From positions 1-39,332 of the forward strand of contig JAKAUR010000011.1 of assembly GCA_021827665.1 (NCBI GenBank): a stretch of DNA of 39,332 bases. The letters are read 5' to 3'. Below the pieces are notes generated by a model. That model worked only from the letters and a program-made list of their open reading frames with translations. It did no database searches and was not told the DNA's origin. The position numbers and the translations under genes are program-made. Source of the stretch: Microcaldota archaeon. GTDB lineage: Archaea > Micrarchaeota > Micrarchaeia > Micrarchaeales > Micrarchaeaceae. Of the stretch, positions 9,781-37,966 are shown piece by piece. Position 1 is the first letter of the stretch; every line of letters starts with the position of its first letter.

Positions 9781-9914
9781 GCCAGGGTGGCAGAATCTGG
9801 TAACGCGCCGGTCTTGAGTTTTCAAAACGTCAAGAGCTGATTGGTGATGCGAAAAGGCGCGACAGGTAAACCGGTGCCCTCACGGGCTTTAGGGTTCAAA
9901 TCCCTACCCTGGCG
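9781..9914 (+). tRNA. tRNA-Ser(UGA) with intron
   Basis: The acceptor GCCAGGG pairs with CCCTGGC (discriminator G at 9914). The T arm is TAGGG/CCCTA around TTCAAAT. A long variable arm (GCCC TCAC GGGC) marks a class II tRNA. The anticodon stem is CCGGT/ACCGG, and the spliced loop reads C-U-UGA-G-A. The discriminator G and loop match archaeal tRNA-Ser(UGA). The mature form joins 9781-9818 to 9869-9914 (84 nt). CCA is not encoded. Confidence 0.88.
9819..9868 (+). other. Bulge-helix-bulge intron of tRNA-Ser
   Basis: This is a 50-nt intron at the canonical position 37/38. The 4-bp central helix forms between CUUG (9813-9816) and CAGG (9863-9866), flanked by 3-nt bulges AGU (9817-9819) and UAA (9867-9869). 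Each bulge is cut after its second base, giving exactly these borders. The target is the archaeal tRNA splicing endonuclease. The pairing inside the intron is weak. Confidence 0.75.
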
Positions 9915-15368: not shown

Positions 15369-15387
15369 ATGTGGCGAGGTGTGGAAT

Positions 15388-15969
15388 ATGAAGAGATCGC
15401 TAGAGATAGGGAGACTTGTCGTAATCACAGGGCCTATGTTCTCGGGCAAAACGTCTAGGCTTATAGAGCTTCTTGAACGAGAGCGCTTTTCGGGAAGGAA
15501 GGTTATACTTTTCAAGCCGGAGATCGACAAGCGCTACGGCGAAAACAAGGTTAAAACACATAAGGGCATGGAGCTTGACGCTACGGTTGTAAGGACGGGC
15601 AAGGCAGGAGTAAAGGCAATATTCGACGTGAGTTCTGACTACAACGTTATCGGAATAGATGAAGCCCAGTTCTGGGAAGATGATTCCGGGCTTGAGGACA
15701 CCCTCAACGGGCTGGCATCAATGAAAAAAATAGTGTATGTATCTACGCTAAACAAGGATTACAAGGGTGTGCCGTTCAGCATATCCGAGAAGCTTCTTGT
15801 GTATGCCGATTACATATATTCGCTTACTGCAGTTTGCACTAAGTGCGGAGAGGAAGCCGTGTTCTCGCAAAGGATGATCGACGGCATTGCAGAGTCTGGA
15901 CCACGCATAGTCATAGGCGGCAAGGAGGCGTACCAGCCGCGTTGCAGGAACTGTTTCGTGACGCGTTAG
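15388..15969 (+). CDS. tdk: Thymidine kinase (type II)
   Basis: This enzyme phosphorylates thymidine with ATP for dTMP salvage. It has about 193 residues, the normal length. Walker A is GPMFSGKTSRL, the IGIDEAQFW block holds Walker B and the catalytic Glu region, and a C-terminal lasso zinc site has CTKC and CRNC pairs. The ATG at 15388 follows GAGGTG with a six-base gap, which is better than the GTG at 15379. It provides a salvage route to dTMP beside the de novo ThyX route. Its stop overlaps by three bases the stop of the convergent ECF-phosphoribosyltransferase gene. Confidence 0.94.
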   Translation: MKRSLEIGRLVVITGPMFSGKTSRLIELLERERFSGRKVILFKPEIDKRYGENKVKTHKGMELDATVVRTGKAGVKAIFDVSSDYNVIGIDEAQFWEDDSGLEDTLNGLASMKKIVYVSTLNKDYKGVPFSISEKLLVYADYIYSLTAVCTKCGEEAVFSQRMIDGIAESGPRIVIGGKEAYQPRCRNCFVTR

Positions 15970-18524
15970 GCTTTTGCCATGAACGCAAGGGGCTTTTTCA
16001 GCCCCATCGCCGCACTTATTCTTTCTACTGCCGCTTTCGTAGATCCTACTACAATCATGTCTTCGGTTTGAGGCTTGACGATACCGGCAGCATTACCATC
16101 TATTGGGATGAGACGCTTTACCCCGAGCCGGTCCGAAAGCAGCCTTGCCTGTACCAGCGCCAGGGGATTCTCGTAAGCTATGGCCATCGGCTTCCGGCCT
16201 ATGTTCAGGCAGAATTCGTCTATTTTCTTGTAAATGCTTGAATATTCATACCCTGAGTAAGAAGCAAAATGCTTGCGAAGTTCTGGTAGCATGGCAGGGT
16301 TTGCCTTTTCGAATTCCGAAAGAGCCTCGTTTCTTTCATAATCGAAAACAACCCACGTGTCGTCTGAAACCTCTTCTGCGTATATGTCAGGTTTTATAAT
16401 CGAGCGCGGCTTTGTAAGCATTGTGCACGTTACGAACCGTTCCGTGGGGAAAGCGGAACGCAACTGCCCCATTATGCTGGCCAGGGTTTTTCCAGTATCT
16501 ACCAGCTCGTCCACAACCAAAACATATCCTTCTCCGCTTGGGATTTTAAGCGATTCTATGCCGCGTACGAATACATCTTTGGTTGATGCGCCTATGTCGT
16601 TATAGTGGCTTGCGGATATGCCATAGGTTTTTATGTTTCCTAGCTTCGGATAAAGCGCAGAAGCCAGCACCATCCCTCCCCTTTCTACGTATATCATGCC
16701 CTTTGGCACGCCGGCACTCTTTAGCTCTGCTGCCATCTTCTCCGCACTTGAATAGATATCAGCAAAGGATTTGAAAACTATCTTCGTTTTCGATTTCAGG
16801 AAATTGAAGAAATTAAGCCATTCGCCGGCGCTTATCAGCGGTTCGTCCAGCAGGCCGGCATCCATCATGCCCTTGGATAACCTTACCGACTGGGGCTCCG
16901 ACAGCGATGATAGGCGCAGCACATTTTCATCCATGAAGAGGGCTTCCGGAGTTCCGTCGAATATTATTGAGCCCTTGCTCATTACTATGGCCCTGCGGCA
17001 GTATTCTGCCACCAGCCTCATGTCGTGGGTTATAAGCAGAACGGTGACGCCCTCTTCGTTCAGGCTTTTTATTATCTCCATTATTCCCATTGCCATTTTG
17101 TAGTCCTGCCCGGTGGTCGGCTCGTCGACTATGAGCACTTCGGGCTTTATTACTATGCTGCTTGCTACTGCGAGCCTGCGCTTCTGGCCCCTGCCAAGGA
17201 ATACTGGATCCTCGTTTGCCTTGTCCGAAAGGCCCACGCGTTTGAGTATGCCAGCAATCTTCTCATCGGCTTCCTTACCTGTTATGCCCGCATTCTTCAA
17301 AGAATAATTGACTTCGGAAGTGACGCTTCTGGTGAATATTTGATGGTCCGGATTCTGAAAAACGTAGCTGACATGCAGTGGCAGCTTGAGCCTGTCCCTC
17401 TTCGAGCGCGGATTCAGTCCAGTAACCTCTGCGGTGCCTGAACCGGGTGCGAGTATCCCTGATATTATTTTTGAAAGCGTGCTCTTGCCAGAGCCGTTCT
17501 GGCCCACCAAAGCCACAAGTGAGCCTTTTTCTATTTCAAGATTTATGTTGTCGAGGGCCTTGGTCCCATCGTCGTACGAGAATGATATACCGTTAAGTCT
17601 TATTATAGGATTTGAGGCCGTAGGCTTTTTACGTTCTATCTTGAATTCCGTTTTGGGTATTCCGCGCTTTGGAGTTTCATCTACGGAAAAGTAATCGGAA
17701 AGTTCAGATACCTCCGGCGCGTATATGTTGTACTTCGATATCAGCTCCTTGTCCGAATATATCTCGGCAGGCCTGCCTGTTTTTACTATGGAGCCCTCGT
17801 ACAGCAGGGCTAGCCTGTCGGCGAACCTGAGCATCACGTCGGGATTGTGCTCGACCAGAATTATCGTCATTCCCGATTCCTTTTTTATCCTTGCGATGGT
17901 CTCTATAACTTCCATCTTCCCCTTTGGGTCAAGGTCAGACGTAGGTTCGTCGAGTATCAGTACCTTGGGCCTCATGGCCAGGAAGCTCGCTATCACTAGC
18001 CTCTGCTTCTGGCCTCCAGACAGTTCTGAAGGATGAATCTTTTCTGCATAATCGTAAAGCTCGCCAAGCCCGACCAGTTCCAGTGCGTCCTTTATGCGCG
18101 AGCGCATTTCCTTCTTTTCAAGGCCCATGAGCTGAAGGCCCAATGATACCTCGTTCATGACGCTCATGCTGAGGAACTGGCTTTCAGGATCCTGCATTAC
18201 AAGGCCCACTTCCGGTGCGGTTGAGCCCGTACCTGAAAGCTTGAGCTCTCCGTTTATAATGTCTGCTTTGGTTACCGTTTTGCCCAGTACGCTTATCTCT
18301 CCCCTTATCCCGTCCTGGAAATTGGGCGGAAGCTTGAGCTGGTGCGGTATGAGGCCGGCTATGGCATAGCAGAGCGTTGTCTTCCCGGAGCCGCTGGGCC
18401 CGGTAATGCCCAGAAATTCACCCTCCTTGACTTCAAGGTTAATGCCTTTCAGGGCGTAATCGCTCTTTATGCCGGTAAAATTGGGATATCTCCAATAGAA
18501 ACCGCTTATAGATATTGAATCCAT
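15966..18524 (-). CDS. ECF transporter tandem ATPase fused to a phosphoribosyltransferase
   Basis: This gene encodes 852 residues in three parts. ABC domain 1 has Walker A GPSGSGKTT (42-50), signature LSGGQ (168-172), Walker B VLILDEPT and H226. ABC domain 2 has Walker A GQNGSGKST (341-349), a degenerate signature LGRGQ (443-447), VLIVDEPT (463-470) and H500. Together they match the EcfA/EcfA' pair. Residues about 580-740 form a type I phosphoribosyltransferase: VERGGMVLAS, PRPP loop VLVVDELVDTGKTL (668-681) and the PDIYAEEVSDDTWVVFDYE stretch typical of xanthine/guanine enzymes. The last 110 residues are unassigned. The fusion suggests that an imported purine-type base is converted at once to its nucleotide (inference). 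GGTG sits five bases before the ATG. Confidence 0.9.
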   Translation of the reverse strand: MDSISISGFYWRYPNFTGIKSDYALKGINLEVKEGEFLGITGPSGSGKTTLCYAIAGLIPHQLKLPPNFQDGIRGEISVLGKTVTKADIINGELKLSGTGSTAPEVGLVMQDPESQFLSMSVMNEVSLGLQLMGLEKKEMRSRIKDALELVGLGELYDYAEKIHPSELSGGQKQRLVIASFLAMRPKVLILDEPTSDLDPKGKMEVIETIARIKKESGMTIILVEHNPDVMLRFADRLALLYEGSIVKTGRPAEIYSDKELISKYNIYAPEVSELSDYFSVDETPKRGIPKTEFKIERKKPTASNPIIRLNGISFSYDDGTKALDNINLEIEKGSLVALVGQNGSGKSTLSKIISGILAPGSGTAEVTGLNPRSKRDRLKLPLHVSYVFQNPDHQIFTRSVTSEVNYSLKNAGITGKEADEKIAGILKRVGLSDKANEDPVFLGRGQKRRLAVASSIVIKPEVLIVDEPTTGQDYKMAMGIMEIIKSLNEEGVTVLLITHDMRLVAEYCRRAIVMSKGSIIFDGTPEALFMDENVLRLSSLSEPQSVRLSKGMMDAGLLDEPLISAGEWLNFFNFLKSKTKIVFKSFADIYSSAEKMAAELKSAGVPKGMIYVERGGMVLASALYPKLGNIKTYGISASHYNDIGASTKDVFVRGIESLKIPSGEGYVLVVDELVDTGKTLASIMGQLRSAFPTERFVTCTMLTKPRSIIKPDIYAEEVSDDTWVVFDYERNEALSEFEKANPAMLPELRKHFASYSGYEYSSIYKKIDEFCLNIGRKPMAIAYENPLALVQARLLSDRLGVKRLIPIDGNAAGIVKPQTEDMIVVGSTKAAVERISAAMGLKKPLAFMAKA

Positions 18525-18536
18525 GATTACACCGGG

Positions 18537-19361
18537 TCAGATAAACGGAAGCATAAGCATGAAAGCGCCGAAAGCGACTATTGCGGCGTCGCTCGCCTTG
18601 AACCTCTTTTCTGAGATGAAGTCGGAAAGCCCCTTGGATTTGGAGAATCCCCTGGATTCGAGCGCAAAGCCCATGTCTACGGAACGTTTTATCATGGAAG
18701 TAGTCAGAGGTATAGAAAGCATTACGAACGCGCTGACCTTCTTTATTATGTTTGTAGACGCACCTCCGGCACCCCTGGCGAACTGGGCCTGCCTTATCGA
18801 ATCCAGGTCGTCGGACATTATGTTCAAGCTCCTTGCTATCAGCGATGCGAAGAAAACGGCCTTGAACGGGGCCCTGAGCCTTTTCAATGCCGATATGATG
18901 TCTGCGTCCCTGGTGCTCATTATCGTTAGCAGCGTCATGAACGCCATCGACGCATATCCGGATATCTTGCCTATGCCCACATATATTGATAGATAAGTTA
19001 TCCTGAGCGTTGCCCCGAAAAGCGTCATGCTGAAGATAGGGTTGGTTCCTATCTGGTTGAAGACTATCCACCAAGCCATCATTACGAAAAGCGCTACAAC
19101 CAGAAGCGCCAGATAGCTCTTGACAAGATATTTTATGGTTCCGCTCTCGAATAGGAAGCCTAAGGCGAACACCAGGACAAGCAGATTGTATGTAAGGTCC
19201 GGGACCGGGCGTATTATAGATTCCACGACACCTACAGAAAGTAGTATTAGCAGCAGAAACTTTGCTATGGGATTCATGTTAACGTAAAAGGAGTCGGAAC
19301 GGGCAGAGAACAGTATGGTCTTGACCCTACGTTTCTGCCCACGGGAAGCCGACGCCTGCAT
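18537..19361 (-). CDS. ecfT: ECF transporter transmembrane coupling protein EcfT
   Basis: This gene encodes 274 residues. A basic N-terminal stretch is followed by about five membrane helices and a long cytoplasmic region. It carries the two coupling motifs that dock onto the ATPases, ARG at 195-197 (QAQFARGAGG) and SRG at 236-238 (FALESRGFS), which identify the CbiQ/EcfT family. The start ATG directly abuts the TGA of the S-component gene, and its stop lies 12 bases before the ATPase fusion gene, so the three are one operon. It transmits ATP-driven movement to the substrate-binding S component. Confidence 0.92.
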   Translation of the reverse strand: MQASASRGQKRRVKTILFSARSDSFYVNMNPIAKFLLLILLSVGVVESIIRPVPDLTYNLLVLVFALGFLFESGTIKYLVKSYLALLVVALFVMMAWWIVFNQIGTNPIFSMTLFGATLRITYLSIYVGIGKISGYASMAFMTLLTIMSTRDADIISALKRLRAPFKAVFFASLIARSLNIMSDDLDSIRQAQFARGAGGASTNIIKKVSAFVMLSIPLTTSMIKRSVDMGFALESRGFSKSKGLSDFISEKRFKASDAAIVAFGAFMLMLPFI

Positions 19362-20009
19362 TCATGACACCCAACCTGTATTCACGAGTCCGAAGCGCTC
19401 CACCACTGGAGTAACGTATTTGGCGAGGAACGGCGCTATGAGAAGCACTATCGCGTCTCCCAGTATCCATAGCCCGGCACCTAGGAAATACGCGCCCGCT
19501 GGAACGAAGCCGAGAAGCACTAGAATCCATACGCCCCATAAACCTCCGATTATATTGGTGATTCCCATAACCCATACCGCGAACCACGCGGCAGATTTCT
19601 TGCTTTTCATTATGTCCCTGCCCAGCGGATCTACGCCGTGCTTTCTCAGGTATCCCCTGTAAAGAAGGAATATTAGCAAGGCTGGTATGAGGTCCCCTAT
19701 GCTGAATCCAAGCGCCGGAAGCACTGGCAGTCCAGTCAACAGCCCGGAACCGACGAATGCACCGATCCATGCCCCCATTATTCCCCACACTCCCCACCAT
19801 AATGTGAAAACGACGAAGAAAGGATATGCCCAATAAAGGAATCCTATTCCCGGACCGACAACCGGAGTTGCTATTGCCCCAAGCCATGAAAGCAGTATCA
19901 CAACCGCCATTTGTATGGCAAAAAGCGCATATTGCGTTGTGGTAAGCTTCTGTCCTTTCCATTTTAGTGTGTACTGAGAATAGTTCACACTAGAGTTTGA
20001 ATTTACCAT
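19362..20009 (-). CDS. ECF transporter substrate-binding S component
   Basis: This gene encodes about 215 residues with a soluble N-terminal tail of about 25 residues and six hydrophobic segments. Small residues dominate helices (WGVWGIMGAWIGAFVGSGLL), as in S components, which present AxxxA-type faces to EcfT. Position first in an operon with EcfT and the tandem ATPase makes the role nearly certain, but the substrate cannot be read from the sequence. The phosphoribosyltransferase fused to the ATPase points to a nucleobase (inference). I chose the ATG at 20009, close behind GGTTGGTG, over a TTG three codons upstream. Confidence 0.82.
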   Translation of the reverse strand: MVNSNSSVNYSQYTLKWKGQKLTTTQYALFAIQMAVVILLSWLGAIATPVVGPGIGFLYWAYPFFVVFTLWWGVWGIMGAWIGAFVGSGLLTGLPVLPALGFSIGDLIPALLIFLLYRGYLRKHGVDPLGRDIMKSKKSAAWFAVWVMGITNIIGGLWGVWILVLLGFVPAGAYFLGAGLWILGDAIVLLIAPFLAKYVTPVVERFGLVNTGWVS

Positions 20010-37878: not shown

Positions 37879-37966
37879 GCGCCAGTAATCTAGCCTGGTA
37901 GGATATCAGCTTCCCATACAAAGCTGGAAAAAGCTGAATGCCCGGGTTCAAATCCCGGCTGGCGCA
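37879..37966 (+). tRNA. tRNA-Gly(CCC) with intron
   Basis: Acceptor GCGCCAG/CTGGCGC with discriminator A; D arm TAATCTAGCCTGGTAGGATA as in archaeal tRNA-Gly; anticodon stem TCAGC/GCTGA; spliced loop U-U-CCC-A-A; T arm CCGGG/CCCGG. The mature form joins 37879-37916 to 37932-37966 (73 nt). CCA is not encoded. Confidence 0.9.
37917..37931 (+). other. 15-nt bulge-helix-bulge intron of tRNA-Gly
   Basis: The central helix UUCC (37911-37914) pairs perfectly with GGAA (37926-37929). The bulges are CAU (37915-37917) and AAA (37930-37932), cut after the second base of each, at canonical position 37/38. Confidence 0.8.

Follow-up and report, generated by a model that had tools for sequence, protein, structure and literature searches.

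A candidate guanine importer of the ECF type in Micrarchaeota and Thermoplasmatota, with a 6-oxopurine phosphoribosyltransferase fused to its ATPase

A three-gene operon at positions 15966-20009 (minus strand) of a 39,332-nucleotide stretch of a Micrarchaeota contig, hereafter the window, probably encodes a dedicated, ATP-driven importer of the energy-coupling factor (ECF) type whose substrate is a 6-oxopurine base, guanine being the most likely; once inside, the base would be trapped by a phosphoribosyltransferase (PRT) fused to the transporter's own ATPase. The operon is compact and head-to-tail, with an S component, EcfT, and a single 852-aa open reading frame (ORF) in which two ATP-binding cassette (ABC) domains precede the PRT, as an earlier, sequence-only reading of the window had proposed. 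That reading took purine import from the fused enzyme alone; the proposal is now backed by guanine riboswitches on three PRT-less bacterial operons, by the 6-oxopurine type of the PRT and by our finding no other route to GMP. We also count in its favor that the fusion, S component and EcfT always occur together in 15 archaeal genomes and that solitary, diverged S homologues lie in purine and nucleoside salvage clusters. The parts of the interpretation differ in strength: comparative sequence evidence gives strong support to purine-base import, guanine is the best reading of the substrate, its identity in the archaea being predicted by comparison, and trapping by the fused enzyme is likely, on the premise that the imported base is also the substrate of the PRT.

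The features of the locus are as follows.

19362..20009, minus strand: S component, 215 aa, substrate-binding membrane subunit; six membrane helices, AxxxA in the first; new sequence family with a predicted ECF S fold
18537..19361, minus strand: EcfT (CbiQ family), transmembrane coupling subunit, 274 aa; PF02361, E=4e-19
15966..18524, minus strand: fusion protein, 852 aa, single ORF with domains assigned by hidden Markov model (HMM): ECF ATPase, ECF ATPase, 6-oxopurine PRT, apparent decayed second PRT
16320..16844, minus strand: PRT segment of the fusion, residues 561-735; PF00156 and alignment with E. coli Gpt
15969..16292, minus strand: C-terminal extension of the fusion, residues 745-852, apparently the remnant of a second PRT, lacking the PPi and PRPP loops (hhalign)
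15379..15969, plus strand: thymidine kinase gene (PF00265), convergent neighbor, probably outside the system

The S component and EcfT genes abut, 12 nt separate EcfT from the fusion ORF, and the end of that ORF overlaps the convergent thymidine kinase gene by 4 nt.

Subunits of the transporter

The two ABC domains of the fusion protein (residues 24-195 and within 307-556) score above cut-off with TIGR04521/04520 (424/417 bits), and both are ECF-type ATPases with intact Walker A, Walker B and signature motifs, the second signature being the variant LGRGQKRR. The coupling subunit expected of an ECF transporter is present as a CbiQ-family EcfT. Because a single EcfT copy was detected per genome in the Micrarchaeota carriers, that of the window included, the S-EcfT-fusion module looks dedicated.

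HMM scans of Pfam and NCBIfam yielded no family match for the S component, and so none to YkoE, QueT, BioY, ThiT, RibU or FolT, nor did sequence or profile searches match it to any sequence in the PDB; a known vitamin S component recognizable by sequence was rejected on these grounds. Its AlphaFold2 model, built from an alignment of 18 sequences, has a predicted local distance difference test score (pLDDT) of 82.7, and its best PDB matches in Foldseek are ECF S components (BioY 4dve, the S chain of 4huq, ThiT, 5edl, FolT, PanT and RibU). On this model, the protein is a new sequence family having the six-helix ECF S fold. The AxxxA of the first transmembrane helix (AIQMA or AVQIA) is found in all 16 aligned S proteins besides those of L067 and L068, which show VIQIL. 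The latter two are diverged solitary S genes (L067:7983-8606 and L068:7968-8600; 44% identical, AxxxA lost) within purine/nucleoside salvage clusters that include an NCS1 permease, a nucleoside phosphorylase, an amidohydrolase, a class II aldolase and RpiB (Pfam assignments mostly from the L068 proteins). EcfT was not found in a genome search of G006 and G035, which carry the diverged S type.

The fused phosphoribosyltransferase and its C-terminal extension

The PRT domain is matched above cut-off by PF00156 over residues 612-731 (E=1.6e-9), and a chance match was rejected at an E value of 1e-9 alone and 1e-23 using a profile. Two strings quoted in the sequence-only reading, VLVVDELVDTGKTL and YAEEVSDDTWVVFDYE, are both present in the fusion protein, and comparison of the active site with known enzymes bears out the purine-type assignment made there. 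The pyrophosphate (PPi) loop (R615-G-G), the phosphoribosyl pyrophosphate (PRPP) loop (D672..D676-T-G-K-T680), the contact lysine (K705) and the stacking tryptophan (W724) are all kept, in fused and free copies; the L041 copy, with T changed to S within the PRPP loop, is the only one so altered. K705 aligns with the KPAG lysine of E. coli Gpt and W724 with the DTWIEQPWD tryptophan, known in that enzyme as the O6 contact and the base-stacking residue, respectively. The model of the domain (pLDDT 85) matches Sulfolobus HGXPRT, the P. horikoshii purine PRT, the Sulfolobus adenine PRT 4trb, H. pylori XGHPRT and E. coli XGPRT, placing it, with PF00156 and the profile, in the type I PRT fold. By sequence, profile and predicted fold, the domain is thus a 6-oxopurine PRT of the XGPRT/HGXPRT type, and its conserved residues and the metabolic need of its carriers lead us to infer that it is catalytically active. 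With the 6-oxopurine PRTs of known structure (Sulfolobus HGXPRT 4z1o/4zfn, P. horikoshii 1vdm, H. pylori XGHPRT 7kl6 and E. coli XGPRT 1a95), it shares the fold, the PPi and PRPP loops, the catalytic Asp, the contact Lys and the stacking Trp; unlike them, it is covalently joined to an ECF ATPase, and what looks like a decayed second copy comes after it.

This second copy, overlooked in the earlier reading, is an extension of about 105 residues (~745-852) that is separate from the PRT domain and in which the PPi and PRPP loops are missing. A nine-sequence alignment of the extension matches the opening part of free-standing PRTs (probability 97% and E=1.8e-11 in hhalign, over 50 columns), and the segment looks like the remnant of a duplicated PRT. 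Among the four closest relatives, a rough Nei-Gojobori estimate of dN/dS, approximate in that synonymous sites are heavily changed, gives 0.01-0.05 for the ABC domains, ~0.08-0.14 for the PRT and 0.15-0.28 for the extension, so that the extension evolves fastest and the PRT faster than the ABC domains. In one Micrarchaeota sub-clade, the gene right after the fusion encodes a second, separate PRT of 6-oxopurine type (L059:4043-4645, L060:11890-12444 and L065:11842-12441), and the fusion there has no decayed second PRT. We speculate that the decayed copy, or the free second gene in this sub-clade, may complete a PRT dimer beside the transporter. A related PRT domain also lies in the middle (290-428) of a 582-aa protein of G114 (L044:9276-11024) in which other Pfam domains are absent. 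The neighbors of free-standing Micrarchaeota PRTs (triosephosphate isomerase, RpiB-like and others) gave no clue to the substrate.

The faster evolution of the PRT would also suit a regulatory fusion, in which a purine is imported and the PRT acts as a nucleotide or PRPP sensor that shuts the ATPase off when GMP is plentiful, catalysis being secondary or absent. C-terminal regulatory domains are well known on the ATPases of other ABC importers, such as MetN, MalK and ModC, and the bacterial versions described below have riboswitch control instead of a PRT. We nevertheless consider a purely regulatory role improbable: the catalytic and base-contact residues are all kept in the 15 fused copies, and because searches of the Micrarchaeota carriers found no 6-oxopurine PRT besides the fusion, loss of catalysis would leave these without an evident source of GMP.

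Guanine riboswitches on bacterial homologues

Three bacterial operons (L061 and L063 from Athalassotoga and L064 from a metagenome-assembled genome (MAG) labeled Thermotoga) encode an S component ~70% identical to that of the window, EcfT, and an ABC-ABC protein of 585-594 aa without a PRT. Directly upstream of S, on the same strand, each of the three carries an RF00167 purine riboswitch (84.6, 81.3 and 78.9 bits, relative to an Rfam cut-off of 37 bits), and these aptamers are the sole Rfam matches within the 60 kb searched. The aptamer core is canonical, with GUAUAAU, one GUAUAUU variant and GUUUCUACC, and the specificity base is C (C74; GACUAC) in all three. By established rules, C at this position marks a purine riboswitch as the guanine type. 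Downstream of the aptamers, we observe a hairpin with a U run and then a GGAGG ribosome-binding site; in minimum-energy folds, L064 forms a terminator hairpin, and in L061 and L063 the 3' strand of P1 is taken up by a competing hairpin. The bacterial operons are presumably switched off in the presence of guanine. Because the bacterial operons lack a PRT, the riboswitch evidence is independent of the fused enzyme.

The same riboswitches bear on the substrate class. Most of the substrates known for ECF transporters are vitamins or metals, QueT and QrtT import deazaguanines (PMC11130926), and the gene set of S, T and ABC-ABC recalls YkoEDC; the S component could accordingly import a vitamin or other micronutrient, such as hydroxymethylpyrimidine or a deazaguanine tRNA precursor, with the PRT fusion being incidental. 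We regard this as very improbable, given that no Pfam family, YkoE and QueT included, matches S, that the bacterial operons carry guanine riboswitches and that the PRT is retained in 15/15 archaeal operons.

Distribution and history of the fusion

We find the ABC-ABC-PRT architecture unbroken, with S and EcfT upstream, in 15 distinct genomes of Micrarchaeota and Thermoplasmatota, always paired with the same S component and EcfT. The Micrarchaeota-type carriers are the window, L052-L057, L041, L059, L060 and L065 (some of the MAG titles read Marsarchaeota or Mancarchaeum), and those from Thermoplasmatota are L062, L066, L146 and L145. All archaeal operons of this S type that are complete in their contig have the fusion; L058 ends at a contig edge. 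An assembly or frameshift artifact was rejected, as the fusion recurs in 15 genomes, two of them complete: Ca. Micrarchaeum harzensis A_DKE (L054/G056; 989,838 bp) and G276 (1,959,588 bp; operon at L145:4295-8853), taken to be Ca. Scheffleriplasma hospitalis. The latter is the cultivated host of the former, and its chromosome has been published (PMC8975820). Symbiont and host, grown in co-culture, therefore both carry an S-EcfT-ABC-ABC-PRT operon. The S family is rare, occurring in 8/196 genomes of the window's class and 3/101 of the Athalassotoga phylum.

In the ABC tree, the Scheffleriplasma/L062 pair clusters with the Micrarchaeota forms (supports of 91/87 and 100/99), a placement that suggests horizontal transfer, and a single fusion event is enough to account for the tree, which is unrooted. 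The operon L041:7564-11657 (G010) is a mosaic relative to that of the window, with S 91% identical, EcfT 59%, ABC ~63% and PRT 43%, suggesting recombination or replacement of S.

Purine metabolism of the carriers

Pairwise purine-gene searches were made in the complete relative A_DKE; searches for IMP dehydrogenase (IMPDH), PurA and the PRT families extended to the genome of the window itself (G000, Micrarchaeota, 852 kb). In A_DKE, E. coli queries for PurF, PurN, PurL, PurM, PurK, PurE, PurC, PurB, PurH, PurA, GuaB and UraA (NCS2) found nothing, as did queries for an NCS1 permease and a nucleoside phosphorylase. GuaA and PurD queries gave just weak matches to two adjacent genes of 365 and 1036 aa, whose sizes fit carbamoyl-phosphate synthase subunits. 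No de novo purine genes were thus found in A_DKE, archaea-specific purine enzymes (e.g. PurP, PurO) being outside the search. HMM searches of the Micrarchaeota carriers found no PurA and only fragmentary, non-enzyme matches to IMPDH, with control genomes positive. Gpt and Hpt queries hit the fusion alone in A_DKE, and the Apt query hits one separate gene; the window's genome and A_DKE each have three PF00156 genes, namely the Apt type, a gene of ~315-334 aa that is presumably a PRPP synthetase, and the fusion. Because no de novo genes, IMPDH, GuaA, PurA or other 6-oxopurine PRT were found, conversion of guanine through the fusion protein appears to be the only evident GMP route in Micrarchaeum. 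The published account of A_DKE describes incomplete DNA and RNA biosynthesis pathways (PMC8975820), and another publication credits Micrarchaeales with only part of the purine pathway (PMC12892359).

Dependence on a host or community, for which the sequence-only reading considered such a machine useful, is not a general reason for the fusion, because Scheffleriplasma and other Thermoplasmata carry the fusion while keeping IMPDH (G147, G148, G261 and G276; where tested, PurA is kept in G147 and G148). In the Athalassotoga carrier G146 (L061), full-length IMPDH was not found and PurA is present; because IMPDH is present in the two related MAGs that share the operon, its absence from G146 was dropped as support.

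These repertoires also bear on whether the substrate is a purine other than guanine, i.e., hypoxanthine, xanthine or adenine. The Sulfolobus adenine PRT 4trb is among the closest solved sequences to the fused domain, and in the Thermoplasmata carriers, which have IMPDH, IMP made from hypoxanthine would be usable. Even so, we judge another purine unlikely: the bacterial riboswitches are of the C74 guanine type, for adenine, A_DKE has an Apt-type gene apart from the fusion and, with no GuaB, GuaA or PurA, could use neither IMP nor XMP, and the base-binding strand of the fused PRT, W-V-V-F, is nearer that of Sulfolobus HGXPRT (W-I-I-F) than that of 4trb.

Other features of the window

The adjoining thymidine kinase gene, to which the sequence-only reading had drawn attention, also adjoins the fusion in A_DKE. 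In Scheffleriplasma, the adjoining gene encodes a CTP synthase, and thymidine kinase was rejected as a functional partner since the neighbor is not kept beyond close relatives, despite the common salvage theme. Elsewhere in the window, Rfam finds a tRNA (39 bits) over 134 bases at 9781-9914 (plus strand) that ARAGORN missed, perhaps having a long intron, and ARAGORN calls an odd tRNA with a four-base anticodon at 37879-37966.

Proposed mechanism and relation to known systems

In the proposed mechanism, the S subunit would bind the base, guanine, outside the cell, and ATP hydrolysis by the tandem ATPase, acting via EcfT, would move it across the membrane. The PRT, kept at the cytoplasmic face by its fusion to the ATPase, would then trap the released base by converting it with PRPP into a nucleotide (GMP in the case of guanine). 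Several points weigh against this interpretation. The best Foldseek E value of the S model is a modest 0.004 (probability up to 1.0), and because of this, the S-fold call rests on the consistent list of S-component matches. The riboswitches come from bacterial orthologues that are possibly of one origin, and a riboswitch on the archaeal operon was sought as a candidate and not found: an Rfam scan of the window and six archaeal loci gave tRNA only, with none in L145. In sequence, the 6-oxopurine PRTs lie near a related archaeal enzyme, the adenine PRT 4trb, and adenine, hypoxanthine or xanthine could be the base. Finally, nucleosides or nucleotides could enter the cell another way.

The covalent tether between enzyme and motor makes obligatory modification during transport possible. 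More speculatively, and with considerable doubt, S may hand guanine straight to the tethered PRT in a vectorial phosphoribosylation, in which guanine would appear inside only as GMP and the use of ATP and PRPP would be coupled. Group translocation was once proposed for purine PRTs; if true, vectorial phosphoribosylation would make this system a group-translocating, ATP-driven importer.

Among described systems, YkoEDC-type ECF transporters import hydroxymethylpyrimidine/thiamine. Like the operon studied here, YkoEDC has its own S component, EcfT and a single two-ABC-domain protein in one operon, and the ECF S component 5edl is one of the Foldseek matches of the S model. The present system differs in an S component without a sequence match to YkoE, in the guanine riboswitch of its bacterial members and in the archaeal ATPase-PRT fusion. 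QueT/QrtT ECF transporters take up queuosine precursors (PMC11130926, PMC11477304) and are alike in ECF import of a purine-like (deazaguanine) base; here, the S component has no sequence match to them, the module looks dedicated and a canonical purine salvage enzyme is attached, and the bacterial relatives have a guanine riboswitch rather than a preQ1 riboswitch. The purine permeases CD2107 and CD2704 of C. difficile are under guanine riboswitches (PMC11477304) and thus share guanine-sensing control over a purine transporter gene with the bacterial relatives, in which the controlled transporter is instead an ATP-driven, three-gene ECF system. Searches of the open-access literature turned up neither an ECF transporter that carries canonical nucleobases nor an ECF ATPase with a PRT fused to it, QueT/QrtT being the nearest described system; the earlier reading likewise knew of no described ECF transporter having the fusion.

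A guanine importer of this kind would add nucleobases to the vitamins, metals and tRNA-base precursors carried by ECF transporters, would provide a new family of S components for which a concrete substrate can be tested, and would join an importer's motor covalently to the enzyme consuming its cargo. For a cultivated DPANN archaeon without recognizable purine synthesis, it is a candidate route of GMP supply, and with a related copy of the machine in the host, competition for guanine or its sharing between the partners becomes testable.

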